Source: Isoetes taiwanensis
Taxonomy: Eukaryota; Streptophyta; Lycopodiopsida; Isoetales; Isoetaceae
DNA length: 64,000 nucleotides
Assembly (NCBI GenBank): GCA_021234155.1
Contig: JAJEKV010000059.1
Location: 62,001 to 126,000 of the forward strand
Reading direction: 5' to 3'
Part shown: in pieces, positions 9,243 through 53,143 of the stretch
Layout of the letters: each line of letters opens with the position of its first letter
Numbering within the stretch: the first letter of the stretch is position 1
Program-made: the position numbers and the translations under genes
The notes under the pieces: generated by a model
Database searches by the model: none
The model's input: the letters and a program-made list of their open reading frames with translations, nothing else
What the model was told of the DNA's origin: nothing

Positions 9243-9249
9243 AAACTAT

Positions 9250-23386: not shown

Positions 23387-23417
<31 letters not shown>

Positions 23418-30115: not shown

Positions 30116-30119
30116 CATG

Positions 30120-30152
30120 CTCTCTCTCTCTCTCTCCCTCCCTCCCTCCCCC
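30120..30152. repeat. Pyrimidine microsatellite
   Basis: A run of CT dinucleotides grades into CCCT units and a C run. It lies exactly between the minisatellite and the 5'-truncated LINE. Confidence 0.85.
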
Positions 30153-30169
30153 CTCCCAATTCAAAAGTG

Positions 30170-31384: not shown

Positions 31385-31581
31385 GTATGGCGCTTATCTT
31401 GCCAGCGTCTGTTCTTGTAACTTGAGCATCAGGACTCCGTTTTCGATGATCTTCAGTTTGTTGGAAAGCTTATTCCGAGAGCTTTCTATCAGTATAAATT
31501 TTATTAGGGTTTGCAATTAGGTTGGTGGCTGGATTTGGGCCTGTGTGATTTCGGCCACTTTTCGTAGAGATGGGGAAGAAA
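31385..31581 (+). other. Probable 5' UTR and start codon of a second LINE, cut by the large element
   Basis: This stretch follows the first LINE and ends in GTAGAG ATG GGG AAG AAA (ATG at 31570-31572), immediately before the terminal sequence of the large element at 31582. On the far side, at 51561, the same frame resumes as VKTDIALAFKAAAKRR. I infer that both sides are one LINE ORF1 split right after codon 4. Confidence 0.5.
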
Positions 31582-34480
31582 CATGATTGCAAATTAAACG
31601 GGAGTGTTGCAGCACTCCCGTTTCGAAGATGCCCTTGAAAAAAACAGCTTGCTCTAGAAAATGACACTTTTTTCCTTCTAATTGGGAATTCCAGTAGGCT
31701 TAATTTTTTTTACCTCCTTTTTGGCCCCTTAGTGCAAAAGAACTTGGATTTTGCTAGAAGCAGCACTTGAAAAGGGAAGAATTTAGACATGCTTTTGTAT
31801 TCTCAAAAAGTATTTTCTTGAAAACACCAGAATGCAGTGAATAAAATAATTATTATATAACTAGTAATGGTGCCCAGCGTTGCTGGGCATAAGTCCAGAG
31901 CTCGCAAATGTTTTGGCCACAATAAGAAAAGCGCGCATCCTGTTAAAATAACGGTTGCGATCTTTTGATGCGATCTTTTGTTGGTTCTCACCACATAACC
32001 GATGTGGTCTTTTGTTAATTCTTACTGCATTTGAGAATAAATCGGTATGTGTCTGACGTATTTCAACATGAGATTAGTTGTATTATGGATACCAATATGT
32101 TGCAATATGTATGTTGAATGAGGCATATGTTGTTAATAGGAAATGTGTAAAATGTTCTAAGACTTTAATTGTATATTTGCTTGCAACTTTTATCAATGTC
32201 AAATGTAATTTGATTAGTCTTTGCTTTATCTTAATCAATGGAATTGCTCTTAAAAAACATATTCACACAAATGTTTCATGTTTATTGTTATCTTTAATGA
32301 GTTTATAACTGGTTTCCAACTTTTTGGTAAATGCGTGCAATGCAGAGTTATCCAAGGCCGTTGGAACTTGGGGTTCCTTTATAAACCTTAAATCTTTTTC
32401 AAAGATAGTCACTTTGCATCATGCAAAAGCAACAAAAATTCTATTTGCAAAGGACATAAGTTTAAGAAAGTCTAAAAGTCCACAACAATGAACTAAAAAC
32501 AGCCCGTCCACAATAACCACCAATATAACATAACAAACACATCAAAGAAACAAACAAAACCCCTTTCAGTAGGTTCCCCAATGACGCATCTTGCAGTTTT
32601 GTTGGCTTTTGTTTTTATTGAAATTATTTGGGCCATTCGATAGGGCATTTTTCTCCCAAGGTTTATGCCTGCGGCGGTTTGAGGCAGCCGGAGTTGGGAT
32701 GTCCGAAAAAGGGGGAGTCTGAACGTGTGATTGTCTATGATTGTCTTTCGTTTCTAGAGCTGGACGATTTTTGGTGGAGGCCATGCCTTTTTATTCGTTT
32801 ATCTCTTGTTCATTCTTTGTTCTAGGGCCCAGGTAGCTTGCGAGGTAGGTTCGGCAGTCCGTGATCAATTTTTAGCCCTCTTTTCGGTTAAACTTCTTCC
32901 ACGGCTATTCGGAAGCAATCATTGGCCATTTCTGATTGGGTTTTATTTCTCAAGGATGGAATTTTTCCCGGAGGAATTTTTGCTTGTGTTGATCGAGTTT
33001 TTCTTCTTGTTGTTCTCCTCTCTTTTGGGATTGGTGTGCTTGTGCCGATCAAAGGGTTTTCTTTGCTATTGTTAAGCCCCTCTTCATCATTGGATTTTGG
33101 AACACGGTGTTTTGCCCGTGGGGTCCAATTCCCCTACCGGTTCAATGTTCATACCTTATTGTTGTTTTGGTTGGCTATTTCTGTTCTTTTGCTTCTAATG
33201 TTCAATGTTCATACCTTATTGTTGTTTTGGTTGGCTATTTCTGTTCTTTTGCTTCTAATGTATGGCTCTTTTGCTTCTAATGTTTGGCTGATGCCACTTG
33301 TTCACATCTCTGTATTGTGCATCTGTTCTTTTGCTACTAATCTGGGGTTGATGCCACTTGTATCTGGCTAATGCCACATGTACGAACCAGATTTGTTGTG
33401 AATTGCCAATGATCATTGGCATAGAAGGCTAGGATTTTTTTTAATTCATGGAGGGACCAAAATACACAAAAAGGGTAGCATCTATATCAGCAACCAAGAA
33501 ATATACCTACATTTTATGCAGCCTTTGACAAAAGTTGAGCTAAGCTCATTGTTGCGGAAGACATATAAGCGCCCACGAATTTAAGCAAAAAAACCCACAA
33601 ATTTATCTCGAACCCACAGATTTATATTTCATGTAGGCTTCAAGGATGCTAGGTCGGCTGTCACCAAATTTTGGCCACTGGACTCCAATTCCAAAAGAAC
33701 CACCTACGTATTTGGATGGGCCAAGCTCATATCGGAGGATGCAAAGCTAAGCTTATCCATGCCGCTTTTATCTTTGCAGTAAAAAAGGATAGCAGCATTG
33801 CTTGGCAATTAACAAACAGGCCGCTGCTGCTCAAGGGTTTTGCCCTTAAAGGTACAGTAGAACATTAGATACACACAGAAACCCAGACATCAACATTTGT
33901 AACTGGACACAAGCGGTTTTTGTTGGAACAGCCTTATTGTCCACCTTGATGTCCACGTACATCAAGGTCAGGTTAATATCCTGACATGTTAAATATGATT
34001 GCGCAGTCCTTTGGGCTAACCAAATTTCCAGTAGAATAGTTCATAGTGGCTCCAATACCCCTATTAAACACCCCAGTTAAATAATTAATCATTTTATACT
34101 TCTGAGGAATAAACCTGTGATCAGAAATGCTTGATATTATTTACATATATGATTCTCCTTTATCATTGGAGAGCAAAACAGATTTAAAACAACCACTTTA
34201 ACTTGTTAAAATGTAGGTCTGACAAAAAAAAGTATCTCTCAACTTCATATGCCTTATAGTCAATTCACATACCTTAGTATCACCTTGGCATATGCTAACT
34301 GTCTTCCACAGAGGAACAATTGGAACTTTGATCGTTCTCCTTGATCTTATAATTCGAAGAACACTTCCTCTCCACGGTCTTGGATATCTCTTCGGCTCTT
34401 TTCAATTTGTCACCTACAAACACTTCAAAACCTGTATACTTTATACTGCATTGTGCATCATTTTTGGAAGTCTCTGTGCC

Positions 34481-34738
34481 CTATATATGTGTTCCATACA
34501 CATCAACAACTTTAGCATCAATGTCGTCATCTAAGTAAGCCTGAAAGTCACCATTATCACAATCAATCCCATATTTGATTGCATCCACTGCAAACCTCTT
34601 TAAGGCTATGGTCTTATCTCCCTGAAAATCAGTGGGAAGCTTTCCACAATCATTTAAAGAAGTAGCATTGCTTAAAGCATCATTGTTGAAATGATGCACT
34701 CCATGGATCCAACAAAGGTAGAGAACTGGTGACATCAA
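34481..34738 (-). pseudogene. Possible captured gene fragment in Helitron A
   Basis: An 85-residue minus-strand frame contains GDKTIALKRFAVDAIKYGID and YLDDDIDAKVVDVYGTHI, with CAG steps before GDK and before AYLDD that could mark exon borders. It looks like real protein, but I do not recognise the family. Helitrons often carry exon pieces of host genes, which would explain it. Confidence 0.35.
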
Positions 34739-36638
34739 TTTCCTACAATTTCCTAACTTTGCAGCTCTTCCTTGCTTTTTGAGCTTTTATAATCTGTATT
34801 TTCATCATTCATTTGTAACGCCCTGTCTTTATTCATGGCAATAGCTTTGTTCTTGCTGCCAGAAAAGCTGCATAAGTTGTCATTTCAAACGCAATTCTGT
34901 TTTGCAGCATGTGAAATGCCACTTTAGTTCTCTATGAGTTCAGAATGTCTAGTTTGCTATATGCCACTCAACTTTATCTAGCCTTTCCTGTGATATTTGC
35001 GAGAGAAAATGTAAAATTGTTCCTGCTGTTTGCAGAGATCCAGCACATGCCTCACAAATCTTCAACCTTCAAAAAGCGAAAGAAATTACAAATATTCAAG
35101 ATACCAACAAAAAGGAATCAATCATGATCGCATGGCATGAGATTCAGCGGCTTACCTGAAGACCTCAGTCCTTGGTTGCGAATGTGAAAAAAATAAACTA
35201 AAATTTTGAGATGGTGATGCGACCCGGCAATAGGTGCGGGACTTGGCATTTAAAACGTAGTTATTTAATTTATAAGAACTTGCAATTCTCTCCAAAATAC
35301 AAACTTGAAAAACAGTTACATAAAGCTATAGGCCAAAACACCATTGAGAGTCCATAGGCCAAAACTACAAAAAGCCGACAAGTCATGCCAATTGGAGATG
35401 GGTGCGGGGAGTGACGGATCATCCTATGCCAATAAAAACCCGAACAATAAATTTATTTACACCTATATACATGTGCATGTGCTTTTGTTGGGCGTGGAGA
35501 AAAAAAATATTATCATGCCAACATCATTGATTCCCCAAATCCACAAAAATGCTCTAGATTCTTTATATACAACATGGTTTGAATTCACTATAAGCTATGA
35601 AGGAACCAACATGGGCAAATACAATAAAGCTAATAAAAAGATAACAAAGCGTAAGCGAAACCCGATCAAAGACCTTTGTATTTGTGATCTTGCCCACAAT
35701 GTGGCAACATTTCTTTGTTACAAAAGCTTGATCTTCTATGTGAATTCTGCTTTACCACATGCACGCTTTGCTCATCAAATGTCCAAATATCTCATGCAAA
35801 CCTCTAAATATCGCCATAAATAAACCAATTTAAATGATAAGCATTAAGATAATCAACCAATGCAAAACATAAGAGATTTTCAACATGTTAATCAATTCTT
35901 ACACGAATACTACGGTCCATTCCTAGCAAATCATTCACCCATAATCTCAACATGTTAATCAATTCTTACACGAACACTTACGGTCCATTCCTAGCAAATC
36001 ATTCACCCATGAGCGGCAGCTTGATGCTTGTGATAGTCAAAAGAAACACGAAGATAGCATAGGCGCAACCCGCCGGAAAAAGCGGCTTAGGGCTTCTAAA
36101 GGTCCATTCCTAGCAAATCATTCACCCATGAAGCGGCCTGATGATGACTACATTTGCGGCTTAAACTTTTCAGGGCTAGCAATCGGCCTATTCTTATCTT
36201 CCATTTTTTCTCCGAATCGTCTTTTCTAAGCTCTTTCCCGGGCTGGCAATCCGGCCCCCTTTTTCTCTGAATCATCTTACGCCCGGACATGTTTTTCACG
36301 TGATGGATAAGCAGTTTCGTATATATCCGACCCTATGCCTGCATATCCGGTTGTGAAGCGAATGATCGACTCTGCCATTCTTCCTTCAAAGTATCCGGCC
36401 CCCCTTTTTTCTCGAATCATCTTCTATTCTAACTATTTCCCTTTAAATCTTAGATATTTTTTATCTTTTAAGTGATGGATAAACAGTTTTATTTAAGCAT
36501 ATCCGCCCTATGCCTAAGCGTGTCATATCAAAAACAATTAGGGGCGTTGAAACTTCACGCGGAAAATATCCCATGACATAGAGCCAAGCATCAGCGGCCC
36601 TTCTATTCTAACTATTTCCTTTAATGCCATAGGATAAG

Positions 36639-36933
36639 CGCCTTCCCACGCCAACCAAGAATCTAACAAAAAAAACACAAAAAAAACATCTAAAGAAACT
36701 GACGTGGCATCATCTCCTCCATTGGCTTGATCAAATCTGGAGCGTCCAAATTAGGGCTGGGTCCAACACTTACACAATAACATTATCGCCTTCCTCGCCA
36801 ACCAAGAATCTAACAAAAAAAACACAAAAAAAACATCTAAAGAAACTGACGTGGCATCATCTCCTCCATTGGCTTGATCAAATCTGGAGCGTCCAAATTA
36901 GGGCTGGGTCCAACACTTACACAATAACATTAT
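36639..36933. repeat. Tandem duplication of the Helitron A 5' end
   Basis: A 147-148-bp unit starting CGCCTTCC and ending CAATAACATTAT occurs twice in a row (36639-36786 and 36787-36933). Only the outer copy continues into the TC terminus. The inner copy is cut 8-9 bases short of it. The unit also carries GGGCTGGGTCCAACACTTAC. Confidence 0.9.
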
Positions 36934-37110
36934 AATATAGGATAAAGAATGTTTCAATGACACAATTTGTAACAACACATGAAGGTGAGTAATAATTTTT
37001 TTTGTAAAAGACAGACTAAAGGTCCAAATCAAAGTCTTCGTCATTCTTTTTGCTTGTTTCTGCTGTGCCAGATTCTGTAGTCTGAACCTTTTCTTGTGCC
37101 TTACCCTTGT

Positions 37111-40100
37111 CTATTCTGCAGTGTCTTCAGGAATGGTAGCTAGTGCCACTTCTTTCAGCTCTGTAAAAGTAGCTTCATCCTCTAAAGAGCTAGTGAATGG
37201 AGGCTGTATCTCAGAAGGGGTCAGCTTGGCAAAATCGGACGAGGATTTGGCGCCTAACTCTTGGTGCTCATCTGGTAGAGTAGGCAAGGCTGCCAGTCTC
37301 ATCTTGATGAATTGCACAGCTTCTTTATCAATGTCCACTGCTAGACAATTCCGGCCCTTCTTAAGTGCACAAGCTATTGTTGTACCAGAGCCAGAGAAGG
37401 CATCAAGCACCCAATCTCCTGGACGTGAAAACATGTCTAGGAGATGGTTGATTAGCTTTTGAGACTTCTGATAGTGATTAACAATTCTACCTTGTGCACT
37501 AGGGTCTTGTAGCTTTTGAAGCACAGCTGGAAATTCCAAAACATTAGAAAAATTCTGGCATGTTGCTGTGTTAAAATGCTCCATGGTGCGTTTGCCATCG
37601 AAACTCCAGTAAGCAACATGGAGGTATTCAACCTTACTCAGCACCCTCGGCCAGCCGCCATGGTAGTTTATATTTGTTTTGTACCTGTAGAAATTAGAGT
37701 CGTGTCACTAACGAAAACAGAACAAAAAACAAACAAAGAGAACAAGTCAAAGACAATCTTATTCTGGAATAGAAAACTAAAACAGAAAGAAGAAAGAAGC
37801 CCAACGTATTCCAGAATAAGGTACTCGCCAAACCAAATTCTCATAACCAGCTTGCACTGGGGATCCGAAATGATTTTTGAACGTGGACTCCACAAGACGC
37901 CAGTGCTTGGCCGTTGTGACTTGTTTGATGCCGTCGACGAAAGCGTTAAACTCTGAAAATTTAAAAGGCTGACCGTCGTAACGGCTGTCTTTTAGTTTAA
38001 AGCCATAGGGAAGGTCTGCTATGACTAGTGTAAAATCATGTGGCTTTACTGTTCCAACCAGTTTAGTGCAGTCCCCGTGGATGATAGAAAACAAATTATT
38101 TTGGTCGTACAAACTAAACTTTTCATAATCAGAAGGCTCCACTTCTAGAGTCCTCCTATCTGCCAGTGTTCTTTCTTCTCGTGCCAGTCTCACGAGGTGC
38201 ATGAAACCTTCTGGCAGGTCCTTATTTTTCTTCTTGTCCTGCAAACAAAGGGGAGATTGAGACAGAGACAAGTCAAATATGACGTGTTTAGTCAGCGTAC
38301 CCATCCTTCAAAATTTGGTGCGTACTGAACAATACGCTCGTCGGATGTAGCTATGGGGTAAAGCTCCTTGCACCTCTCCCACGTTTCCACGTTAAGTTGC
38401 TCCATCAGAAGTCTGGCAGGTGATAACATTTTTTTGGCTTGAAAGAAAACCACAGCAGTTTTAGCAGTTGGAAAGTGAAAACGTAAAGTAAACTATCTTC
38501 CTGCCAAGTAAACTTATTCTAGAATACAAGTGCCTTAGACAACATTTTTGTTGTTGCAGTAGTGTATGCATTAGGAATTTTTTGAGATCATAAAAGGGCC
38601 TTCTAAGAACTGCTGACTAAGCTATATGAACTACCAATCAGAAAACAGAACTGGTAATCCAGTCAGCAAAACAATTATAACTAACTCACTGGATCACATT
38701 TTCTAGCATAAGTGTTGATAGGAAAGTCCAAATGAGCTCTTGTTTGGTGCAATAGATAGATCTCATTGAGATCTTTCCAAACTTCGGTGGTTTGCATATG
38801 TTTTAGCCCCGTACGATAGTAAAAAATGGTAAAAACCACATTTTTTGGAATTTTGACAATCATAAGTGGTTAAAATACATGTAAAGATCTCAACGAGATC
38901 TATCTATTGCACTAAACGAGAGCTCATTTGGACTTTTCTATCAATAGTTATGCTAGAAAATGTGATCCGATGAGAGTTAATTATAACGATTTTCTTGGAC
39001 CGGACCCAAATCGAACTCTAATTTCTGATTGGTAGTTCATTTATCTTCATTTGGCTTAGTTGGCATGTTTTGAAGGCCCCTTTTTAATCTCAAAAAAACC
39101 CTAATGTCCAGAATACACTTTAACTGCGGAGAAGGAGCGAAAGTGTATTCCGGAATACACTTCTACAACGCAACAAGTTAGAGTGTGTATTCCAGAATAC
39201 GTTTTCGCTGACTGAAAGGATCCGAAGTGTATTCCAGAATACACTTTAACTGCGGAGAAGGAGCGAAAGTGTATTCCGGAATACACTTCTACAACGCAAC
39301 AAGTTAGAGCCTGTATTCCAGAATAGGTTTTCGATGACTGAAAGGATCGGAAGTGTATTCTGGAATACACTTTTACACTACAGGAAAATGAAGATGTATT
39401 CTGGAATACACTTTCGATCCCTCGAGGGTGAGAAAGCATTTTGAGGAGTACCCGACTGCTGTTATCTTAAGGTAGTTGTAGAATTCTACAAGTGAAAAGG
39501 CAGCAATGATGGTAATGCTTACTTGTGCAACTCCTTCGACATTTCTTCGAGTGTGAACTCCTTGTCCACCACCTTCTGCAGAAGCCGTTCTAGTAACTTT
39601 CAGGTGTCGGTAAACCCCCGCATCTCTCCCTCCGGGCGTGAAGGTGATAGTAATTTCTTTCTTTGGCACGTCGGTGCCTTTCTTCTTCTCCGAGACCTTG
39701 CCTTTACTTTTTAGCTCACCATGCTCAAACATATTAAATATTTCATTTTGGAGCTCCCAGATCTACAAACAAAATAAGAAACTTAAAAGCTAGTTGCACA
39801 CTAAATTTTATTCTGGAATACGCTTGTAACATACCCGGCCATCCCTGAATGCTAGCTGAAACCAGTTGTCATGACCATTGAGTGACGCCCGTTTGTTCGC
39901 CTCGTCGTATTTAAGGCAACACTCAATGGCACAAGCTTCTTTAAGTTCAAGGGAGTACTGTGGCTTCTTTAAATCCTCTCCGTACTTTTCCTTGAAGATG
40001 ACATATTCTCTGTGCATAAATCTAATTTTATCGACGAAGCTCATTTTTAACTTGTACTCGTTGTCAACGTTGTGAGTGTTGGCAACGATCTTGGCTTCTT

Positions 40101-41760
40101 CGTCGGTCAAACCACAGTAGACTGCACAGAGGACAGACAAGTACCTAGGATTGTTTTTTTCTTTGTATAATTGCCTCCTGGCCTTGAAGCTGTGGTTCCC
40201 ATCCAAAACATAATGCGTATATGTGTCCGCATTTTCTCTATCGTACTCTGCAGGAGTTTTGCACTGTTCTCTATCAACAAGAACAACAATAGGAGCAACA
40301 TGGGCGTTTGGATTGCTCTGAATTCTGTCCTTGAGGTTCCTTAGATGATCTGCATATATCTTTCGAACCTGCAGTGGTCGTTCTCCAGCTTCATTTTTTG
40401 GAGGAAGCTTCATTGATGTGACTGGCAAATAAATGAAACCTTGCACAAATTTGTGCAGGTTAATCTCTTCCATTTTCTCTGCTGTTTTATCAACCTTTTT
40501 TTCTTTAATGGCAACACCAGGTGCTTTGCCCTTCCCCTTCTTCTTCTTGTGTGCTTCCTGAGGAGCATCTTCTATTACAATTACAGCAGTTTTCCTTTTT
40601 TTAGGCTCTTTAGCAGCTATGGTTTGCCTCTGCTTCTTTGGCGGTGGTGATGGTGGCTGCTCTTCCGAATCTGATGGACTCCCTGATGGGCTCGCAGACC
40701 TTGATGGACTCCCTGATCCATTCCCTTGGTCTTCCTCTTCCCCCTGCTCTGACTCGCTGTGGGCGAAGTCTTCGCTTTGTGTGCTTCGAACGTCGTTGAT
40801 TATGGCACTGAGCGATCTCTTGTTGATATAGTGAGAAACATACTTGTAAAGTGCCAGTGGGTTTACTTTGACCAATCTAAAAAAGGCTTCATCTACATGA
40901 ATGAAACCTTGGGATGTTGCAAACGATAGTCTCCCTTGTTGTCCCGACTCCCCAGCTACTTCACTCACAGCTTGTATGGTGCCCATGCAGACAAATTCTC
41001 TGTCATCGTACCTTTTTGCACCAGGGCTCCGACAGACATGTAAGAAAGTAAGGGTACTGTACTTTCCAGCTGTACCCCTTGTAAAGAACCACTGAGTTTG
41101 AAAGTTCTCGTAAATCCCAGGCGCAATAGTATCATCAACCCGTTTCTTGCTGCCTTCTTGCCTGTACAAAATGTGAGTAAACACAATTTTTTTAGTGAAA
41201 ACACTGGCATAAAACTATTCCAGAATACACAATGTCTTAAACAAATGATAAAAAGAGTACAGAAAGAGGACAAAAAGGCCAAAACAACAATGCGCCCTTG
41301 ACAAAAAAACAGGCCCAAACAAGTCTAAAAAGCAGAAAAAACGCCTAAAATTGACGAGAAAATGCGAAAAAATTGTCCTTTTAAAATCAAAAGTCACGAA
41401 AGTGTATTCCAGAATATACTTCCACCTTCGCGAAGGTGTATTCTGGAATACACTTCAAAGTGTATTCCGGAATACACTTCAGCAGACACATTGAAGCAAA
41501 AGTGTATTCCGGAATACACTTTGGCTTCGCCTTCACGCGAAGGTGAAACTGTATTCCAGAATAAGAAACAAGCTTAAAAATGATTGTACGTTGTACTTTG
41601 TTGCTTACCTGTCCATGCCTTCTCTATGTGGATCGGAATACAGTCTCTGAATATTATATTCGAGGCGCTGGCGCTGGCGACTTGAGCTCAGAGACTGGAA
41701 TACGCAACTGAAGGCGCCAAAATTTCCTTTTAAAGGTATCCATTTCGTCTTGCTCGTTTT
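37111..41760 (-). CDS. ParB-like domain / beta-class DNA amino-methyltransferase, six exons
   Basis: Predicted DNA modification enzyme, methylating adenine-N6 or cytosine-N4. Exons on the minus strand: 41760-41609, 41161-39835, 39762-39523, 38412-38301, 38238-37829, 37684-37111. Exon 1 is open for 50 codons (KWIPLKGNFGAFSCVFQSL) and has no start of its own except ATG at 41616, so an upstream first exon is likely. Exon 2 has a Ser/Lys-rich, NLS-like linker (KKQR, KKRK, KKKKGKGK), then a ParB/Srx-like fold with VAPIVVLVD and YVLDGNHSFKARRQL. Exons 5-6 hold the catalytic domain: motif IV as ADLPYG (a DPPY variant), then WYKTNINYHGGWPRV, then motif I DAFSGSGTT and LAVDID. The order IV before I is the beta class of bacterial and phage enzymes. 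Exon 3 has a problem: the good C-terminal frame (KLLERLLQKVVDKEFTLEEM) is one base off from the N-terminal frame, with a TGA at 39600-39602. The copy may therefore be broken there. It diverges from the transposase gene. Confidence 0.82.
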
Positions 41761-41890
41761 CTATGTGAAGTGGAATACATTTAGCCTTACTGTTCTGCTC
41801 GAGTGTATTCCGGAATAGCTTTTAGTTTGCCTTTCACTTAATTGTTACATGAACTTCTTCTTGTACCAGGTGGGCTTGTATTCGGGAATA
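37760..41890. repeat. Cluster of about 18 TATTCYRGAATA palindromes in introns and flanks
   Basis: The 12-bp core TATTCYRGAATA (centre CG, CA, TG or TA) occurs at 37760, 37807, 38515, 39146, 39188, 39230, 39272, 39314, 39356, 39397, 39809, 41216, 41405, 41439, 41463, 41505, 41552 and 41806, with a variant (TATTCGGGAATA) at 41879. Several extend to 22-24-bp perfect palindromes: 39141-39162, 39267-39288, 41458-41479, 41499-41522. All lie in introns or the intergenic promoter region, and I saw no full copy in any exon. Part of the cluster is a ~126-bp tandem duplication (39109-39360). The core includes TTCNNGAA, so it also resembles a two-unit heat-shock element. Confidence 0.9.
38569..39106. mobile_element. 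538-bp foldback MITE in a methyltransferase intron
   Basis: Long inverted arms of about 215 bp: outer ends CATTAGG (38569) and CCTAATG (39106), then TTTTTTGAGAT..AAAAGGGCCTTC, GAACTACCAATCAGAAA, ATTTTCTAGCATAA and TGCAATAGATAGATCTC, all mirrored on the other side with scattered mismatches. The loop is about 95 bp. It has no coding capacity. It sits between exons 3 and 4 and could form a strong hairpin in the pre-mRNA. Confidence 0.85.
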
Positions 41891-41950
41891 AGAAAAGCTA
41901 TGCAGTAGAGAAAGTTTCTCATTTCCCTACACTGTTTTGCAGTTCTTAAG
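41761..41950. promoter_or_regulatory. Candidate bidirectional promoter of the large element
   Basis: This ~190-bp gap separates the first recognised methyltransferase exon (minus) from the transposase start codon (ATG at 41951, plus). It contains two copies of the TATTCYRGAATA-type motif (41806, 41879). The true 5' exon of the methyltransferase may also lie here. No clear TATA box was picked out. Confidence 0.4.
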
Positions 41951-44236
41951 ATGACAAACCGCTTCGTCAACAAACTTCCACCACCTTTCGTTGTCTCAAG
42001 CTCGTCTAGTTCTGAGGACACGCTCGGGAACAACTTCTTTTCTTCTGAAGACCGGTATTCTCCGACTCCTACCTCTACTTCATCGTTCTTGCTTCTCGAA
42101 GAGACACCGAGTCCAGCATGTAACAGACTTCCACCACCCTTCCAACCGTCACCAAGTCAAGTAGACATGACACTGGAATCTCCTTCCAAAGCATCACCAC
42201 CAGTTCGGAGCATGCTGCCACCACCCTTCGTTCCATCCCCCGGACCTACAGATGCTCCACAACAACGGGTGCTCAAGAACAAGATACCCCCCCCCCCCTT
42301 TTGTAGTTTTGCCCCCTTCGTGCAAACATACAAGGAACACAGAAAACACAGAAGACTGTGAGATTCACTATAATTTCTCTCACCAGGACTTCACTACAAA
42401 TGAGGACGATGCTGCAGCATGTACTCCTCTTCACACAACGGTTGTGACACATGGATTTGCAGAATTCTAGTCCGCTCTAAAGGACATGTTTGCAAGAACT
42501 CCTTTTCAAGATGGTACAAGAACAGCTGATGCCACAACCTCTTATGGGCCATCACCATCCTTTAACAACTGTACTACCGCCTTTTCCGGGAACAACTTCC
42601 ATTGGTCTGTTTTCCTCTACAAATACACCAATCGGAGACAGGAGGAGGTTACCCCTAGAGTAGAAGTTTCATCGAAGATGATGACACCAAACGGAACAAG
42701 GAGATTACATGTTCTCCAGCCAATCTTCAAAGAAATTCAAGGTGGATTTTAGTTTGAGAGCATGCTCTTCTGTAAGAAGAAGAAACCTTATGGATGAACA
42801 CAAAATGAGAAGACTCCTGAGAACTAAATGCTGCTCATTGGGTTGCATCAACAGATTTAACATGGCCAAACTACGAAAGATTTAGAGACAACTTCTGAGT
42901 TCAATGACATTGGCGCACTGAATGCCTACTTAGCTTATCATGTAAGACCAGACCGCAGCACCTTCTTGCACTACATTAACCGTGAACAAGTCTGCTAAAA
43001 ATGCTTCATGGTTGTCCACCGTCTAGGGCCCTGTGGACCAAGAAGAGTTGTAACTATGCATGCCCTGGCTGCTGTTACATGGATGGAGAAATATTTTAGA
43101 GAGACATGTGAGAAGTTGCCTAATAGCAACATGTATCATCTCACAGACAATATTACAAAAAAAGACAAGAATACAAAGAGACATGCATTCAGTTTCAGCA
43201 CATCTCTTACTCACACTTCACCAGACTGTGGAAAAGTGAATTTGGCCTTGTGAAAATTCCAAGGAGACATAGAATGTCTGTTTGCTCGAGATGTGCAGAA
43301 TTAAAAAGTCAACGAGAAACTGCAAAGACAGAGGTCGAAAGAAGTAAGCTCATGTCCTCCATCCTATCACTTGCTTTGAAGAAAATTTTTTTAACCTGAT
43401 TTCTTTTACAGACATTGTGCAACAGAATCTTGCCAGACATCGTGAACAACAAGTAGCAGAGAGAAGAAAGCTCGCCAAACACAGAAAAAAAGCTCTTGAA
43501 CGTCCACTGCAATATATGTCCATTGTAATTGATGGAAAAAAAGACAACTCTACCCCATTTCCTAAATATTCCAAAAGATGTGCCAGAGGAATGTTTTGTT
43601 AAAGTCCACCTTGTAGGAGCCATGGTCTTTAAAGGAAGTCTAAAGTGCAAAGTATTTTTGACGTATCCAAACTTGCATGGTGACCCAAACCTGACAATTA
43701 CAATCCTTAATAAGGTCCTGTGCGAGCAAGAGCAACTACCACCTGTGCTCTACTTGCAACTTGACAATACTACAAGAGAGAACAAGAATCAAACACTCTT
43801 TGCTTATTGTGCTATGCTAGTGGAGCTAAGGATCTTCAGAAAAGTAAAGCTCGGATGTTCAACAGATTTTCTGTGCGCCTTAGAAGGAAGAAAGCTTTTT
43901 GTCTTCCTATTTTATTTCGAGTCATTGAAGATTCTTACACTCCTATTCCAGTGGTCGAGCTTCTTAAAGAGACTGCAGACTTTAGAGAGTTTGTTTTTCC
44001 TCAACGTTCAGATAGAGAACTGGCTGTGAACAAGTTGAATGATCTTACCTTTCAACATCACATCAAGTTCTACTTGAAGGATGGAGAAAGCTTCTTACAG
44101 GGGAAGAAGTACACCACAACTAAGGATTGGAGTCCAGCAGAGGGATTGCACTTCCTTAAATTTGTTCCAGACCATTGCCTCCAGGGAAAATTTTAAGGGA
44201 CCTATAATTTTGTATAAGTATAATGAATTGGCCATT
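41951..44236 (+). pseudogene. DUF7869-type transposase, 5' part, decayed
   Basis: Predicted DDE/RNase H-like transposase of the large element. The start (MTNRFVNKLPPPFVV) opens a low-complexity region in which PPPF is repeated four times. After frame changes near 42360 and stops in 42730-43000 come KCCSLGCINRFNMAKLRKI, DIGALNAYLAYHV, then KIPRRHRMSVCSRCAELKSQ, an intron (about 43345-43410), and HREQQVAERRKLAKHRKKAL. The core follows: YMSIVIDG, KKTTLPHFLNIPKDVPEECF, VHLVGAMVFKG, LYLQLDNTTRENKNQTLFAY (the conserved DN..ENKN motif), and MFNRFSVRLRRKKAF. Two parts of the family pattern are missing: the few residues after IDG, and the G-H-T-H-x-D-x-D stretch expected before MFNRF. Both losses coincide with frame shifts (about 43535 and 43840-43850). 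The frame then runs to PIILYKYNELAIP with a donor (CTTGTAAAA) at about 44240. The rest of the gene is at 50.2 kb. Confidence 0.75.
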
Positions 44237-45245
44237 CCTTGTAAAATATGCCCCCAAAAGTGTAGCTTGAACTGGCCATTTTTCCTATTTTTTTCTAATG
44301 CGGCTGCAACCCAATTGGCGATTTCTGAACCAAATCCTTTATTATAAAGTTTTAGTGTATGTCGTGCATAAAACCCTAAAACTTTCGACGGCGCAGATTT
44401 GATGAAATCAATGGATCGGACCGCTTGGATTTAATCTAAAGATTGGACGGTCCAATTTTTCCCTCCTAGCTCTCGCTCTCGCTCTTCCTTTCCTTTACAA
44501 TAGCCGGATTTGATCGATCGGTTACTTGAAGGTTCGATAGCCAGTGCTTGCCATGGTTTCCTTGCCCTTCTTCTTGCTCTATGCCGGATTTGATGTTTCG
44601 GTTGCTGAAGAAGCCAGTCTCTTGCCGATTTTCCTAAGAGGCTATGGATAGAACTCACAGATCTGCATCATCTCAGGAGCACATTGAATGGCATAGCCTT
44701 GAGCTGGTTCTCATTCCGGTGCACTGCCACCTGTGGAATACAGTCTGCTTGAGCAGTTTGGCTTGCCTTCTATCCACAAAAATGATAAGTGCAAACAGAG
44801 GATGGAGCCGTTCAAGCTTATCAGTTGGTGACTTAAACAACATATGCAATTCTCATTCCAATAATCTTCCTGCTCCTGGTGAGTGTATTGGAATATTTTC
44901 ATTGCATTGCTGCTTTTAGAAGAAAAAGGTGCAAATTTGTATGTTTGCTCTCTTTTAGTAGAAGGTTCTAGCTTTAGATTTTGAAGTAAGTTTTTTCCTT
45001 CTGTGATTCTTAGTTTCCAAGACAGACATAAGCATATTGTGATCGATAAAACAAAATGGGTATTGATTACATGGTGGGTATTTTATGTCTGATAAATCGG
45101 CCCTAGCCATTCATGTGAGGTGAATCGGTTAACCATTCTGGTGCATAAGGAAGACTAGATAAATTTTTATGTTGTTTGCTTATGTTGCATGCTGATGAAT
45201 GGGTTCCAACAGGCATAGTTCCGTTCAGCAACAAGGGCTGCTCAT

Positions 45246-45559
45246 TGTCAAGGTTGCACCAAGGAAGGGAGAGAAAGGGATGCACACTGAATTCCGAGAG
45301 CGCAAGCTCCCAAAACAAAGCAAAAAGGAATTGTATTCAATGCTATCAATACATGACATACAATGATATAAACACAACGGTGATACTAAGAATAGTCTTA
45401 GCCGTTCACCCACCGCCCACTAATAACAGTCGTTACTTAGTTAGGTCGGCGCTCAGTGCTGATAAGGTGCTTTGTCAGCACTTATGTGCTGAGTGCTGTC
45501 AGTGCTGTGACATCACGTCTAGCAGCAAGATGGTGATCTCGATATCATATATCTCGACA
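45246..45559 (-). repeat. 3' LTR of the copia element
   Basis: 314 bp, with TGTC/GACA ends and TSD CTCAT on its left. Because the element runs on the minus strand, this left copy is the 3' LTR. Confidence 0.93.
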
Positions 45560-46438
45560 CTCCTCCTTGATGAGAGATCGCCATCTCCATGCTCAGCCTC
45601 CTCCTCCTGGAGATAAGATCTGAATCTTGGTCAAGGCTTGCTTAATCAGGGTCATCCGAAAAGCTCAAAAACCAAGTTTGCATGAAGAGATCGGCTCTAT
45701 TCTCTCTGGTAGGTAAATAGACCTGCTGATCAACTACTGTATCAGGAACAGTAAGTCGAGAAGGATTGTCTTTGATATCCATAATTGTTTTGCCAAGAGG
45801 AGGATGAAAATTGTTTTCATGCATATCCTCGATGTAGGCAATAGAAGTATCAAAGATGATTACTCCGTTAAGGCTTGTGGATTCAATAACCACAAATGCA
45901 GCTACTCCAACAATGTTAGTTCGAAATTCTCCATGAAAATCAAACCTTAGTACCTTCGCTTGACCTTGATCAAGTGTTGCTAGAAGTAAAGAGTCAATTG
46001 CTCCTCCTTGCTTTAGAATCATGATCATATATGATGCATATTCAACTCCTCCTTGATCAGGATGATTAAAATCATCTCCTGGATCAGATGGGTCAAGATC
46101 TCCTCCTAGATCGGATGTGTCAAGATCTCAAGGCCGTGATCGTAAAACAACGGGGTCTTGTAAGCACCGGCAGTGCCGGAAGTGTTGGAAGTCTTTGTAA
46201 GTCTTTGGAAGTTTCGTAATCCCAACGTAAAAATCAGGTTGATCGGGTGTTAGACCCCTCGAGTGCCTCCTTGCATAAACGCTGCCAAAGTATCAGAAAT
46301 GAATGCCACTTGATGAAGTGTTGCTACATTGCCTGAAAATGGAGAGATGAAGGCCACATCAAGATATCCTAGCTCAATGGCTGAGGTATCTACTAATCCT
46401 TGCTTCAAGGTGCTGAAATATTAGAAATTGGCATCCAT

Positions 46439-47223
46439 TTATTGGGTGCTACCTTTGCATCGTCGATATCCGAAAGTAGAAGGATCTACATCCACTACTT
46501 CATGCTTAATAGGAAGAGATAATCTGCGGCCAATGTGCTTCTCCTCCTCATCATGCTCATCCCCATTCATGGTAGATTGAGTCTTTGAATGCCCTGCTGC
46601 AAAGAGAGTGGCATGATCATCTTTACCTGCATCTTGCCTCATCGTGGATCTCCTCCTTAATAGAAGTGATTGCTTGATGGAAGCCCATATCTTTGTCTTG
46701 CATGAAGCTGCCGCACAAAGAATCAAATGCATTAGGTAATGATCTGAGGAAGAAAAATAGTTGCATCGATTGTGAGATCGATGCTCTTCTCCAAAAGCTT
46801 CAATATCTTTGGAAGGCGTGCTTCATGCGATCTTGGTTAAGACTCTCTCTCTCTTCCCAATACGTGTTTGTTGCCTCAAAGATGCAAATGCCCAATAATG
46901 TGGGTCTTTTGGTCATGCTTCTCAATGAGAGCATGCCACAAATCATGGCTATTCTCTTGCTGGAACTCATCAAGGATAGAGTCAGCTAAAGAGAACCCGA
47001 TATATGCCATCGCCTTGTCATCTCGGCGCTGCCAAACATGCAAATCAGCAATATTCTTGGCATCCGGTGCAGGTTCTTGGCCATTGACAATTCCCCAAAC
47101 TCCTTCATCTTTGAGAATGAAGATCATTCCGCTTTTCCATTGCTGGAAACCTGTGCCGTCAAAGATTTGAATCGCATGACCGCCAGGGAAGGTAATCTGG
47201 TTGTAGCTTGCATCCTTCTCCAT
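46439..47223 (-). pseudogene. Copia gag (UBN2/DUF4219-like), interrupted
   Basis: It starts at ATG 47223, about 40 bp after the primer site. The first frame (47223-46876) gives the capsid pattern FDGTGFQQWKSGMIFILKDE, VWGIVNGQEPAPD, VWQRRDDKAMAYIGFSLADS and LWHALIEKHD. It then breaks, and a later frame (46732-46439) gives a basic and acidic tail (HDEEEKHIGRRLSLPIKHEV). No CCHC knuckle was recognised. A further minus-strand frame at 46028-45642 has no family I know. Confidence 0.8.
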
Positions 47224-47273
47224 TGCTGTGTTGATCTTGAATCAATCTCAGCACACCTAATGCTCTGATACCA

Positions 47274-47587
47274 TGTCAAGGTTGCACCAAGAAAGGGAGA
47301 GAAAGGGATGCACACTGAATTCCGAGAGCGCAAGCTCCCAAAACAAAGCAAAAAGGAATTGTATTCAATGCTATCAATACATGACATACAATGATATAAA
47401 CACAACGGTGATACTAAGAAGAGTCTTAGCCGTTCACCCACCGCCCACTAATAACAGTCGTTACTTAGTTAGGTCGGCGCTCAGTGCTGATAAGGTGCTT
47501 TGTCAGCACTTATGTGCTGAGTGCTGTCAGTGCTGTGACATCACGTCTAGCAGCAAGATGGTGATCTCGATATCATATATCTCGACA
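47274..47587 (-). repeat. 5' LTR of the copia element
   Basis: 314 bp, followed on the minus strand by the primer binding site. Its few differences from the other LTR include AAGAAAGGG versus AAGGAAGGG and AAGAAGAGTC versus AAGAATAGTC. Confidence 0.93.
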
Positions 47588-47592
47588 CTCAT

Positions 47593-49600
47593 GGCTGTAC
47601 TTAACTCCTGCATAAATTTTTAACTGCATGGAAGTACAATGAAGAAAGTCAAGAACCTCGAGTTGTTATTATAGGTACAAAAGCTTTTGCTTTGCATATT
47701 AGACATGATTGAATAACATTTGTGTTTTTTACTTGCAAAAAAATGCAAAGCAGTTCCTTACTTATGTGCATGTTCTTGCACAGCTTGGCCAATAGAACAA
47801 GCTTTTGCTTTGCATATTAGACACGATTGAATAACATTTGTTTTTTTTATTTGCAAAAAAATGCACAGTTCCTTACTTCTCTTCCTTCCCTTCTCAACAA
47901 GGGGCCATGGCCATGGCCATGTAAAAAAAAAAAAAAAAAAGAAGGGAACCACCACACCAAATAGGGTCTGCATGGCTTTTCCGGGGAGGTTTCATTGATG
48001 TTTTCAAAGACGATTTTAAAAAATTGAAAATAAGTTAATGGCATCGAATCGGGCGAGGTCCCCATAGGATTGAGGTTCTTGCATCTATAGTGGCGAAATA
48101 TCAATACTATAGCCAAAGCCGATAACCCCAACCGGATTGTAACTCTTATCGATGCAACAGAGGAGGAATGCTTTGCTTTATACTGGTATGTCTTAAATCA
48201 TGACAAAATAAATTGCTTTGGACATCATGCTTTTTTTGTGCCCTTTTTCTAGACTATGCACGAGGATTGCACTATTTACGCTCATTTATACATCCTCATG
48301 GTGATGGAAGATTTGAATTTCTTTTCAGTCTATGCTACTACGATTATTGTAAATTGTACATACTCGACTAAACTTTATGAAATATAACATGCAAATGTTG
48401 TTGCAACTATGCGAAACAACTCGTTGGTTATGCAGACCAAACGATTCTTATGCATAATATAGCCTATACTTGATATTAGTTACCGGCGGCATGATGTAGA
48501 CCCGGTTAAAAGTTGAACATGAATCGGATATATTATGGAATTATTTGCTTTCGAAAAATTGGCATCTCGGTTTTGCGAGTTGACTAAACTGTTCCAAACC
48601 AAATCATTTCATGTTATACATGTTGCTCTTCATACATATTGCTCTTCATAATTCATCCACCGTGGCTTCATAATCCAAGGCTAGACCAGATCATGCGTTC
48701 ATGGTTGGTTGTGCCTGTTCGATCAAAGATGCGAGGTAAAATGATTGGACGAGAACAATGTTCATGTTGTGCTCTGTAAAGTTATCTTAAAACACGAGGC
48801 ATAATATTAATATGCATGACTTTGCTCTCAAATTTATATTTAATACAACATTAGCTTTTGGTTGATAATGAAGTCGCATCAGCTCGCAAACTTCACAGTT
48901 GGACATGGCCAAACTAGGTTTTTAATGAACCCGTAATGTCTTTCAACAAATGTGTTGTAACTACATTAAACTCAACGGCCTTACATCACTCTTAGAACAG
49001 TCATTTCAGATTATTGCCATTAGCATAACCACCATAGTTAAAATGTGCATCGATACGAGACTCATCAGATAGATTGCAATTTCTCCCCACATATTTATGG
49101 TAGATACCATTGTTAGAAAAGCTCCCGGTGATCGCTTCATTGAATAAATCTCTTACAATAGGCGCAAGTGTCTCCATTTCATGTATAAACATTTCAACTT
49201 TAAGAGGCTCACAGTCTTTAGTTTTTTTGAACACAGTTGTTTTATGATTCCGTGAATAAGAGAAGCAAAGGAGCAATCTACTACGGTTTTGGGAGCAGCA
49301 TCAGGCAACTTCAAATGCTGCATCTTGGGACATATCTGAATAGCAAGAATTGTGGTGATTCAAAAGCTACACGTAAATTTGCTTGGCCTTTTTTTTTTCC
49401 GAAGAAACTACATTTCCCATAAGTTCTCTAGCACCCGTCTTTTATGTTTAGGGTCCTTGCAGTTGCAACCCCTCAACACAACATTAAACCCATGGTATTG
49501 TGTAATGTTGAAAATCCTTTATAGGTTCAAACTACTTTTCCACTGCATTCGGCCAAAATTCGGCTTGGTTACAAAAGTTGGATTATTACTACACGCTTTT
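47593..49600. other. Helitron C interior without a recognised gene
   Basis: AT-rich. A ~100-bp repeat (ACAAAAGCTTTTGCTTTGCATATTAGACA..GATTGAATAACATTTGT) occurs at about 47680-47750 and again at about 47796-47880. A poly-A/GCCATGGCCATGGCCATG stretch lies near 47905. No coding family was seen. Confidence 0.4.
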
Positions 49601-50239
49601 CTCATTTTAGCCAAAACATTTACAAGCTCTCAACTTATGCCCAGCAACGCTGGGCACCATTACTAGTATCTAATAATGTGTAGCTCAAATGGCAATTTTT
49701 AGCTAGATAAATATAGAGCTAGTTGCCCGAACATAAAAAAGTCGCTACCCTATCTAAATGTATTTAAGTTACATGTTGTATGAATTTTAATTCATACCCC
49801 ATATATTTCAATAATGCACATATTACTAGTAGGGAGAATCAGAAAACAAATGCCAGAGTCTTCGTAAAGAGGATTGAAAAGTGCCTCGACATTTGATTTT
49901 CCAAAAGAGCGGGATTATTCTTAGTTGGTAGAGATATTTAGGAATAAAAATTTCTAATAATGTTAGCCCCCCATAAGTGACGAATTTATGAGGGGGCTGT
50001 TAATAAGTTAAGACTTGGCGAACTTAAGGCATTACAGGATTTGGCCAAGTGGCCTAAATGGCCATTCCATAAGTATATCTAGTTCTCACTTGGGACTAAA
50101 TTGGCCCCAAAGTCAATACCACTCTAATTAGCAAACATCTAATTGGCCATTCTAATAGCGTAATAGGCAATAAAGTGCCACGAAATGGCGAATCTGCAGG
50201 TAGTCCGTAGGTAAGGCATCCTACTCAAGCTGGCCGTCG

Positions 50240-51189
50240 CATTTTGCATGAACCTGTAATTTGTGGCCAAATGGCCCACCGGGGCCACTAAATTTTTTGC
50301 TGATTGCCTCATAGAGCATGCTGAGCAACTTCCTCTCAAAAATCCTAAGGAGTCCAAGCAGAAGAAAAGTACCCCATTGACATCCCTAAAAGCCATTGAA
50401 AATGGCATTTCCTCAAGCTTCAAGTACTTCTCAGAAGAAGATCAATTGTGGTGGACAAATTTCTTTCTTGACCAGAAAGAGGTCTTGCAAAATCTAGCTC
50501 TAAGACAGTTTCAAGAACCGTTTCAATGGCCTGACACCTTCCATCAACCCCAGAACCAAACAGGTCCAAGCAATGCTACAATAGCACCTGCAGCAGAGGA
50601 AGACGAGGATCGAGTCATGTACCTTGGACCAAGACGTAGGAATGAGCCTCGAGGCAATATCACAGAAATTGCCAAAGGTATGCTGATTGCTCTTCCAACT
50701 GAGGAAGATGACAAAGGTCGACCCTTTTGAATAGCAAAAGTTCTTGACACAGTCAAGGAGGAAGGCTTAGTAACTAAACTCAAGATTCACTGGCTGGTGA
50801 CACGTTCAGAAAATGCTTTTGAAGGTAGGTATGAATTAGAAATGAGAAGTCAAAGAAAAGGGAAGAAGTCTAAGAAAGTGGGTTGTAGAGATGAGCTGAA
50901 CTTGAATGATGTGACTATATTATGCTATGCTTTTAAATTGAAATCAGACAATCGTCTGCGCCAAAAAACTGTTAATTTGCTTAAAAAGGCTTGTAATTAC
51001 AAGAAAGAGGATGAAGAAGGGAGTGGTGGTGGCAATGCTTCACCATCTGTTGATAGTGATGAGGAAGACAACTCAAGCATTTCCTCCAGTGACAGTGAAA
51101 GAAGTGAAGGAGATGAGGATGGCATAAATGAACATGATGACGTCCTCGATCCCTCCTTCATCACTCCTCACACTTTTGCACATAACTGA
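50240..51189 (+). pseudogene. DUF7869-type transposase, 3' part
   Basis: A single frame with one in-frame TGA at 50728 continues the transposase. It gives ATKFFADCLIEHAEQL, FSEEDQLWWTNFF, then the C-terminal pattern seen in this family (KGMLIALPTEEDDKGRPF, stop, IAKVLDTVKEEGLVTKLKIHW). The TGA stands where the family usually has Trp (PFW), so it is a single TGG to TGA change. LNLNDVTILCYAFKLKSDNR and an acidic, Ser-rich tail (about 51000-51180) follow to the stop at 51187-51189. Start of this exon is uncertain. Confidence 0.65.
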
Positions 51190-51561
51190 GTCTTAGAAAA
51201 AGACTGTAAATTTTGCATGTGAATATGAAGATTTTATCTTCAAATTTTTAGAATACTACAGTATCAGTTACAGACTTTACTTCAATTTTTTGTTAAATAT
51301 TTTATCCTTTGAAATTAGAGTTTCTGTCTAAAAACATAGACAAGAACATTCTATTTGCTCTGAAAAGTGTCACTTTAAAAAAATCAATTCTTTCATTCCA
51401 CAAAAAAACTAGTCATTTGGAGGGGGGTCAAAATTGAATTTGATGCAACTTTTTTTTTTAACCTCATTTTACCCCCTTTTTCGTAAAAAAAAAGGAATCT
51501 TTTAAGAATATTCCTTTTGCTCTCGTTTCGATGATTTGCTCCCGTTTAATATGCAATCTTG
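51190..51561. other. Right terminal region of the large element
   Basis: Non-coding, AT-rich, ending with the inverted copy of the left terminus (51539-51561). Just before it is an imperfect hairpin (GGAATCTTTTAAGAATATTCC, 51494-51514) in place of the GGGAGTG hairpin seen at the left end. Confidence 0.5.
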
Positions 51562-53143
51562 TTAAGACAGATATTGCTCTAGCTTTTAAGGCTGCGGCAA
51601 AACGGCGTGAAGCTACCGCCAGTTTGGTGATACGTGATCCCCTAGATACGGTGCAAAAAGAGGTAAATAATTCAATTGAAAGTTCTTTGCCATCGTTGGT
51701 GATTGCTCCAGGGGTTCTTGAAGAAAGGGATTTTCCTTCCTTGCAAGGCGCTGCAAGTAAGGGAGTGGAAGTTAATGGGAATTTGCATCAAACAGGTACA
51801 GAATCCAGTCCTAATGTAGATGCTCAGCCCTAGGCAAATGATAGTGCTTGAAAGTCATCTAATTCTGTTACAAAAGTTTCATATCAAAGATTTAGTGATT
51901 GGCTTTGTAAAGATATATCTAGTGCATCTAGAAAGGCAAGGGTAGCAGCTGCTTTACAGGTATTGTCTGAAGGGAGTAAGGATGAGTTGTCCGCAATCTT
52001 GGACATATTGAAAGCTCGACAGATTCAGCTTCAACAACAATTGCCTCCAAATGATATATTTTACCAGTCTGACTGTCAGGATGTAGTTGAAGGTTCTGGT
52101 ATTCCTGTGGTTGAGGTGGACCATCAAGCTCATATTAAGTGTGCTGAGAACCTATCCTCTGTGCAGTCCTTGGTTATTTTACTGGTGGCTATTTGGATTT
52201 TTCACGGTTCAGAGTATTTGGTTATCTCGGCTTTTGAGAAGCCTTCCTTCCTCCTTTTAGGTCCATCAAGTTGTTGGCGAAAAACTTTGTTCTTATTATG
52301 TTTGAAAGTAGTGATGCGATGGACTCTTTGGTATCAAGAGGGATTGATCCACTTAGTGGGGGTATATGATGTATCGATATTACTCTCACGGTTTTACACC
52401 AGATATGGTTCGCATTAAAGATGCCTTGTTGGTTCTCGATACCTAATCTTCCTCCCGATCTAATGGCCCATCAATTTCTAGTTGCAATTGCAACCGGTCT
52501 TGGGGTTCATTTCTCACATTCCATCATGAGCGGTCCGAGGATTTGTGTCTCAATGCCGGTGGACTCGGCTTTACCGGTTGTATAGTGGTGAAAAGTGGGC
52601 CTTGGTATAAGAAGTTGGATCTTAAGCTTCGAATGGTCCAGTTAGCCCGTCTGTTTCGACAAGGAGGCTTTTGCTAGCTTTCATCGAGACACTCGTGCAT
52701 CTCAGGCATCTGTTCAACCTTCTTCTCAGGCTCAAGCTCCCGTTGTTACTTCTTCATCTATTCATGATCAACCTTTACCAGTTGTGTTGCACTCCTCATC
52801 CATGGAAGATGCTCTAATTCCAGTTCCAACAGTGTCGTCTTTAGCGCCATCATCTGTACCTGTAGTGCATTCTTCTCTCCATGTTGATGCTTCTTCCTCT
52901 CATATTTCTGAGGTTCTTATGGCTGATGGTCCTAATCTTCTGTGCACAAAAGAGTCATGGCAGCAGGTCAATTGGAAGAAGGCGGCAAGGAAGAAATCTG
53001 TTAGGTCATCTCACGAGGTTATCCCGCCTCGTTCTATTCAGTGGCATGATAATTTGATGTCTGTTGATGATCATCTCGATGTGGTAGATCATGTTGATTG
53101 TGATGAGGCCATTAAACGCCTCAAGGTGGCACAAGGAGTGTGA
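51561..53143 (+). pseudogene. LINE ORF1 (gag-like, DUF4283-type), decayed
   Basis: It resumes in frame with MGKK at 31570-31581 across the large element: VKTDIALAFKAAAKRREATA, then VLEERDFPSLQG, with a stop at 51831. Further frames give FSDWLCKDISSASRKARVAA, KDELSAILDILKARQIQLQQ, LLAKNFVLIMFESSDAMDSL and IPNLPPDLMAHQFLVAIATG with MSGPRICVSMPVDSALP, like the DUF4283 region of plant LINE ORF1. The Ser/Val-rich tail ends at 53143 (SWQQVNWKKAARKKSVRSSH). Several frameshifts and stops make it dead. No ORF2 follows. Confidence 0.55.

Follow-up and report, generated by a model that had tools for sequence, protein, structure and literature searches.

A DNA transposon family of Isoetes taiwanensis pairs a predicted amino-methyltransferase gene with a DUF7869 gene and carries arrays of a 16-bp palindrome

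We analyzed a 64,000-nucleotide stretch of Isoetes taiwanensis contig JAJEKV010000059.1 (positions 62,001-126,000; hereafter the window, to which coordinates refer) together with the whole assembly of 1,658,258,908 bases in 1110 contigs. The window contains a nested, partly broken copy of a real DNA transposon family in which a gene predicted to encode a beta-class amino-methyltransferase lies divergently beside a DUF7869 gene, the presumed transposase. The methyltransferase is under strong purifying selection, and arrays of a 16-bp palindrome are kept up in the non-coding parts of its side of the element. A preliminary description made from the letters of the window had proposed a plant transposon with its own methyltransferase beside a DUF7869 gene, and the shared ends, target duplications and selection reported here bear this out. 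Our reading is that the methyltransferase protein may bind the element's own palindrome arrays and methylate the element as a self-mark or anti-silencing device; we consider this reading about evenly poised between right and wrong.

Results

Ends and copies of the element

The window copy starts at position 31580 and ends at 51563, with 25-nt terminal inverted repeats (31580-31604 on the plus strand, 51539-51563 on the minus strand) that are 92% complementary. The inverted terminal sequences seen earlier are therefore confirmed, the conserved block ending two bases outside the limits first proposed (31582 and 51561). A target site duplication, AAGA, flanks the element on the left (31576-31579) and on the right (51564-51567).

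We compared the window copy with three further copies, c1065, c438 and c1055. The first is an uninterrupted copy of 8,090 bp with the same start and end bases as the window copy. Both ends are also present in c438, with the identical start, and the right end alone in c1055. All three copies of which both ends were read have 4-bp target duplications, AAGA in the window and AGAA and TCAA in c1065 and c438. On the right the element stops abruptly: across 10 loci, agreement with the majority base is 98% in the last 60 bp and 43% in the 60 bp beyond, and 38 of the 40 right ends scored among 1521 candidates reach the last base. The divergent copies L056-L058 share this right end with 0-2 mismatches in 19 bases, and no end was seen within the piece of L055 that was read. 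Transposons of the Kyakuja-Dileera-Zisupton type have an 8-bp target duplication, and this assignment was rejected given the 4-bp duplication found here.

The window copy measures about 20 kb against about 8.1 kb in other copies. The ends proposed earlier are real, but the length between them is due to nested insertions and not to the element's own sequence. One insertion (31861-36922) is absent from c1065 and c438. Two more are absent from all three copies compared: an intron insertion with a foldback (38568-39106; foldback at 38685-38974 with 95-nt arms, 91% complementary) and an insertion at 44182-50302. The latter holds a copia-type gag (PF14223) between 300-bp direct repeats (45246-45545 and 47274-47573, 2,028 bp apart).

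The methyltransferase pattern ADLPYG matches 497 times across the assembly and its reversed control 19 times, an excess suggesting that copies or relics number several hundred. Judged from these sequences, the family is best explained as an autonomous DNA transposon with a presumed DDE-type DUF7869 transposase.

The methyltransferase gene

The minus-strand gene has multiple exons, whose limits and splice sites, like those of the other element gene, are sequence-based predictions. Its exons include a large one (39835-41161) that holds an N-terminal part without a Pfam match, a ParB-like stretch YVLDGNHSFKARR and an acidic and lysine-rich linker. Two small exons follow, one at 39523-39762 and a short middle exon at 38301-38437 with homologues in L061, L063 and L065 and in the relics L066, L067 and L070. 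The catalytic exon with ADLPYG (37829-38238, inside the interval 37777-38307) is separated by a predicted intron (37685-37828) with two core palindromes from the last exon (37111-37684), which has the S-adenosylmethionine (AdoMet)-binding half with DAFSGSGTT.

By profile and motif order, the gene ends in a beta-class N6/N4 amino-methyltransferase (PF01555), as had been proposed. The PF01555 profile matches the window at 37111-37704 on the minus strand (E 2.4e-16) and the joined methyltransferase exons of the sister copy L021 with 70.7 bits against a cut-off of 26.7 (E 2.3e-19). PF02086, the profile of the Dam-like enzymes of DIRS retrotransposons, fits less well (E 0.011, 16 bits, below its cut-off of 22). 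Beta-class N6/N4 amino-methyltransferases have a (D/N/S)PPY-type motif ahead of an FxGxG AdoMet motif. The order here is the same, ADLPYG preceding DAFSGSGTT, both in invariant columns of five copies, and the second residue of the catalytic motif is L instead of P.

Relatives were sought in viral, phage, prokaryote and solved-structure collections, a scope that excludes eukaryotic genomes. The closest solved relative by profile is CcrM, matched over the whole domain (E 1.4e-10), followed by MboIIA, RsrI and DpnA. All four are adenine enzymes; these relatives and the D of DLPY make N6-methyladenine (6mA) the more likely product than N4-methylcytosine (4mC). The phage family PHROG 67 also matches (E 1.1e-20). 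Phage and bacterial beta-class enzymes such as PHROG 67 and CcrM share the order of DLPY and then FSGSG, but identity is 21.5-25% for the phage matches with a query coverage of 71% or more (19 of the 25 listed; 72 records overall). No close methyltransferase relative was found in the prokaryote genomes. Among viral contigs a single-sequence query found none, and an alignment query gave one weak match (31% over residues 169-277).

The earlier assignment of the large exon to ParB fared worse. A genome-wide search with PF02195 (ParB_N) gave no match at E 0.001; of 14 control genomes, 10 did give matches. DUF6551 matches the ParB-like stretch below its cut-off (E 8.8e-4 and 0.009-0.013) and TIGR03764 weakly (E 0.026). 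The exon has no match among phages or solved structures, nor among viral contigs with an alignment query. The ParB label is therefore weak.

The DUF7869 gene

The presumed transposase gene lies on the plus strand, its first parts at 41909-44196 and its 3' part past the nested insertion at 50323-51189. PF25273 (DUF7869) matches at 43529-44029 (E 2.4e-26) and, in an open exon of c1055, with 173.4 bits against a cut-off of 26 (E 5.2e-51), which upholds the family named in the preliminary description. The protein shows IDG, LDN and HTHDQI stretches that may be catalytic. No DUF7869 relative was found among the viral contigs.

The window copy differs from other copies in both genes. Compared with c1055 and c1065, about 40 bp are deleted from its DUF7869 gene near 43855; its catalytic methyltransferase exon is missing 11 residues that sister copies retain; and its methyltransferase intron has a GC donor, against GT in 29 of the 31 introns compared and AT in one. 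The window copy may not be functional. Among the matches listed in the genome, open exons and stop-containing exons are both frequent.

Co-occurrence of the two genes

We listed about 150 scored matches each for the methyltransferase and for DUF7869 and counted neighbors among them. The two genes lie within 20 kb of each other in 40 listed pairs, against 0.54 by chance, and all 40 are divergent with DUF7869 upstream, the arrangement first seen in the window. The spacing is 4.8-6.4 kb in 30 pairs and 8-19 kb in the rest. The ParB-like exon behaves alike among the matches listed, with 41 of 44 pairs with DUF7869 in the expected arrangement; in 45 of 48 pairs with the methyltransferase the two are co-oriented and stand in the predicted order.

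A partner within 20 kb is listed for 72 of the 150 DUF7869 matches and for 78 none is listed. Six of the latter were read over 2.5 kb. In three, the ParB-like gene is present together with one or more palindromes, which form arrays in two of them; one shows DUF7869 sequence at the place of the methyltransferase gene, probably through an insertion; and two show nothing in the 2.5 kb. Regular occurrence of the methyltransferase without the transposase had been named as evidence against a linked pair. Within the 1.7 kb read where the gene would be expected, four of five methyltransferase copies lacking a listed DUF7869 match contain DUF7869 sequence (one just in part, at the margin of the piece) and the fifth contains none. 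Copies without the partner gene may thus exist.

Selection and exchange of halves

We estimated nonsynonymous (dN) and synonymous (dS) divergence for the last methyltransferase exon in 27 of 30 loci, the other three having no matching open exon, and kept 290 of the 351 pairs, dropping those in which dS was undefined or did not exceed 0.02. The medians are 0.034 for dN and 1.63 for dS. For the 228 pairs between subfamilies (dS above 0.3) dN/dS is 0.020, and for the 42 pairs within them (dS below 0.15) it is 0.195. With synonymous sites near saturation dS is a rough figure, and strong purifying selection holds whatever its exact value. The 27 copies form four subfamilies with 79-85% nucleotide identity between them, and the methyltransferase gene is open in copies of all four. 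Pairs inside a subfamily reach 99.8% identity, so some copies are young.

The two halves of the element can differ in age. Between c1061 and c1034 (L025 with L057 and L036 with L058), the second DUF7869 exon has a dS of 0.13, whereas the methyltransferase exons are saturated, with proportions of synonymous differences of 0.75 and 0.91. In steps of 200 columns, the methyltransferase side shows 56-80% identity; in the DUF7869 gene most steps reach 89-99%, and one is at 82%. Identity rises 0.7-1 kb past the last palindrome of c1061 and, between c1034 and c1057, near the last sites. The first DUF7869 exon was left out, its dS of 0.29-1.10 and dN of up to 0.49 being at odds with 82-99% nucleotide identity along most of it (c1061 and c1034), likely because of out-of-frame pieces in decayed copies. 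The simplest reading of these three copies suggests that halves were exchanged between copies by recombination.

Palindrome arrays

The palindrome TGTATTCYRGAATACA occurs at 6,021 places genome-wide, the reversed word at 2. When the 12-mer palindromes of 38 loci are counted without bias, TATTCCGGAATA ranks first (28 loci, 81 copies) and TATTCTAGAATA, a variant of the same core, second (11 loci); the first unrelated one is found in 10 loci. The centers of 250 cores (TTCYRGAA) read CG in 81, TG in 79, CA in 74, TA in 12 and otherwise in 4, largely the spread that CpG decay of CCGG would give, or else tolerance of any pyrimidine-purine step.

Further counts were made in 55 loci, with the window copy and L010-L012, which duplicate other loci, set aside. 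At least one core is held by 51 of these loci, with 338 cores in total; the four without are L003, a chance pattern match with no recognizable methyltransferase, and L060, L062 and L064. Of the 173 distances of up to 60 bp between neighboring cores, 123 measure 41 or 42 bp, about four helical turns. Half-sites number 623, against 21 in the reversed control, and 350 have a complete partner. When L010-L012 and the window copy are included, the partner-half positions agree at 63-90% and the constraint spans 16 bp.

In the window copy and c1065 the sites lie in non-coding parts of the methyltransferase side, in introns of its gene or upstream of it. None of the 18 cores in the window copy falls within a predicted exon; they include an array at 41-42-bp spacing in an intron (39144-39410) and sites upstream of the large exon (41405-41817), either between the divergent genes or in an unmapped first intron. 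All 13 cores of c1065 are likewise outside predicted exons, at element bases 1101-4515, with none in its DUF7869 gene or at its ends. In L055 up to eight sites are arrayed at 42-bp spacing.

The intron between the two methyltransferase exons, delimited in 31 of 37 loci, shows that the sites are maintained. An exact core is kept in 30 of the 31 introns, L004 being the exception, and two cores in 22. Subfamilies A, B and C share a site about 10 bases into the intron, which in B has often decayed. The other site is at about 58 in A, at 103 or at 28 and 53 in B, and at 50 in C; subfamily D lacks the first site and has sites at 85 and 106. The introns have diverged between subfamilies, and the keeping of about two sites despite a partial change of place argues for selection on them.

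In the clusters sampled, the palindrome belongs to this transposon family. Five palindrome clusters without the ADLPYG pattern, taken as the first on the list of places and not drawn at random, all show element remains, some of them short: L067 retains a match of 23 residues, and L068 has 133 bp that match the left end. This disfavors the palindrome being a repeat unrelated to the element. Among the viral contigs the palindrome pair was not found.

Discussion

A candidate self-marking system

We propose that the N-terminal part of the methyltransferase protein may contact DNA, possibly in a ParB-like manner, and that the protein, probably as a dimer, would bind the 16-bp palindromes arrayed in the introns and upstream region of the element. 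It would then methylate DNA at the palindromes, more probably to 6mA than to 4mC. That the element may methylate its own DNA had been suggested in the preliminary description, and the palindrome arrays, which that description does not mention, lend the idea indirect backing. The mark, or the bound protein, might keep the element open to transcription against host silencing, with an effect limited to its own family. More tentatively, and with the balance somewhat against it, the family may run a private sequence-specific marking system, in which the self-encoded enzyme would read and write the 16-bp arrays, creating thousands of 6mA (or 4mC) islands that counter silencing, and in which methyltransferase and transposase halves would be swapped between subfamilies as modules.

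By analogy, the closest working model is VANC of the Arabidopsis element VANDAL21, whose transposase is of another kind than DUF7869. According to the accessible portion of the source, VANC21 binds short motifs, often tandem repeats, within its own element, where they lie in introns, in intergenic stretches and in terminal non-coding sequence (PMC5735166). The likeness lies in an extra gene combined with short-motif arrays, and here too such arrays occupy the element's own introns and intergenic stretches. The difference is that VANC, as described in the available parts of two reports, causes loss of DNA methylation and is not a methyltransferase, whereas the candidate binder here carries one (PMC5735166, PMC10398659).

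Several observations weigh against self-marking through the palindromes. The candidate DNA-binding part is negative in the ParB_N test and has no solved relative by profile, and a structure prediction of the large exon made without an alignment is unusable, with a predicted local distance difference test (pLDDT) score of 35.6. N4-cytosine enzymes also match the methyltransferase, though more weakly (E 0.006), which makes 6mA a preference only. Two core sites at 17270 and 17301 (17270-17312) lie outside the element, in sequence without homology to it. The palindrome is the same across the subfamilies read, unlike VANC targets, which differ between related families in the parts of the literature on them that we could consult. 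The ratio of observed to expected CpG in c1065 is 0.57 (0.62 and 0.50 in its halves) against 0.62 in the window flanks, and this resemblance gives no sign that the copy has escaped cytosine methylation over evolutionary time. Finally, it may be the transposase or a host factor that the arrays serve.

The strongest competitor is autoregulation. The methyltransferase protein would bind arrays in its own gene and promoter and tune transcription or splicing of both genes, keeping the copy number tolerable, with methylation as the switch; Dam acts as a switch for some bacterial transposons. The arrays stand where such a regulator would act, in the methyltransferase introns and upstream, and in the copies read are missing from the ends and the DUF7869 gene. 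However, few sites would suffice for this purpose, and up to eight at 42-bp spacing suggest spreading or cooperative loading. This point is not decisive, and we judge autoregulation unlikely.

The transposase or another element protein might instead bind the palindromes for synapsis or end protection during transposition, leaving the methyltransferase a separate role. Some plant transposons do have such arrays, the subterminal repeats of Ac and En/Spm being arrays of transposase sites. In the copies read, though, the arrays are internal, absent from either end and from the DUF7869 half, and copies with halves of different age have their sites on the methyltransferase side, which renders this account improbable.

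Less probable still is a role of the palindromes as sites for host transcription factors, such as heat-shock elements (TTCNNGAA), through which the element would be stress-inducible. The core TTCYRGAA fits two heat-shock-element units, but a third unit in register is present at one of 365 sites (one of 388 with overlapping loci), and the constraint spans 16 bp. Transposons commonly capture host genes, but that the methyltransferase is passenger cargo without a role for the element is scarcely credible in view of the selection test, with a dN/dS of 0.02 across near-saturated synonymous sites and open genes in all four subfamilies.

Comparison with other DNA-modifying elements

Transposon-borne DNA-modifying enzymes are already known, and the combination with DUF7869 and palindrome arrays is a variant of this theme. 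DIRS retrotransposons encode Dam-like adenine methyltransferases or Dnmt3, and LINEs a DNMT, for which self-methylation has been proposed (PMC5890265). These share with our element a DNA methyltransferase of their own; they differ in being retrotransposons with Dam-like or C5 enzymes, and the part of that source available to us mentions no site arrays. It does mention DNA transposons encoding DNMT in marine viruses (PMC5890265). Fungal DNA transposons carry a TET/JBP dioxygenase proposed to aid escape from silencing and are alike in joining a DNA-modifying enzyme to a DNA transposon. That enzyme oxidizes 5-methylcytosine and adds no methyl group, and DUF7869 is not among the transposase families named in the accessible sections (PMC12730594). 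The N4CMT of bdelloid rotifers is, like the enzyme here, a bacterial-type PF01555 methyltransferase with introns in a eukaryote. As far as the portion consulted describes it, N4CMT belongs to the host genome, carries a fused chromodomain and marks transposons without being borne by one (PMC8885841).

In the literature searched, mainly outside subscription journals, no transposon with a methyltransferase-DUF7869 pair is described and DUF7869 is not mentioned, which is no proof of novelty. The family bears on two open questions, whether 6mA or 4mC is functional in vascular plants and how transposons use self-encoded enzymes to escape silencing. As the family is multi-copy and offers both a conserved enzyme and a delimited 16-bp candidate site, nanopore reads, a kind used for the I. 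taiwanensis assembly, could tell whether an amino-methyl mark exists and whether it is confined to the element. If the enzyme does read the palindrome, it would be an unusual long-site DNA methyltransferase.

Other features of the window

Outside the element, the window holds a replication-factor-A-like gene at 7688-9245 (PF08646, E 5.5e-43), probably a host gene, and a long array of a 19-bp repeat at 29058-30158. Past this array, a 229-residue open frame at 30695-31384 resembles a reverse-transcriptase-linked zinc domain very weakly (E 0.46). Pieces of the region 18340-24812 recur as an insertion within the methyltransferase gene of c438, and this region is therefore probably another mobile element.

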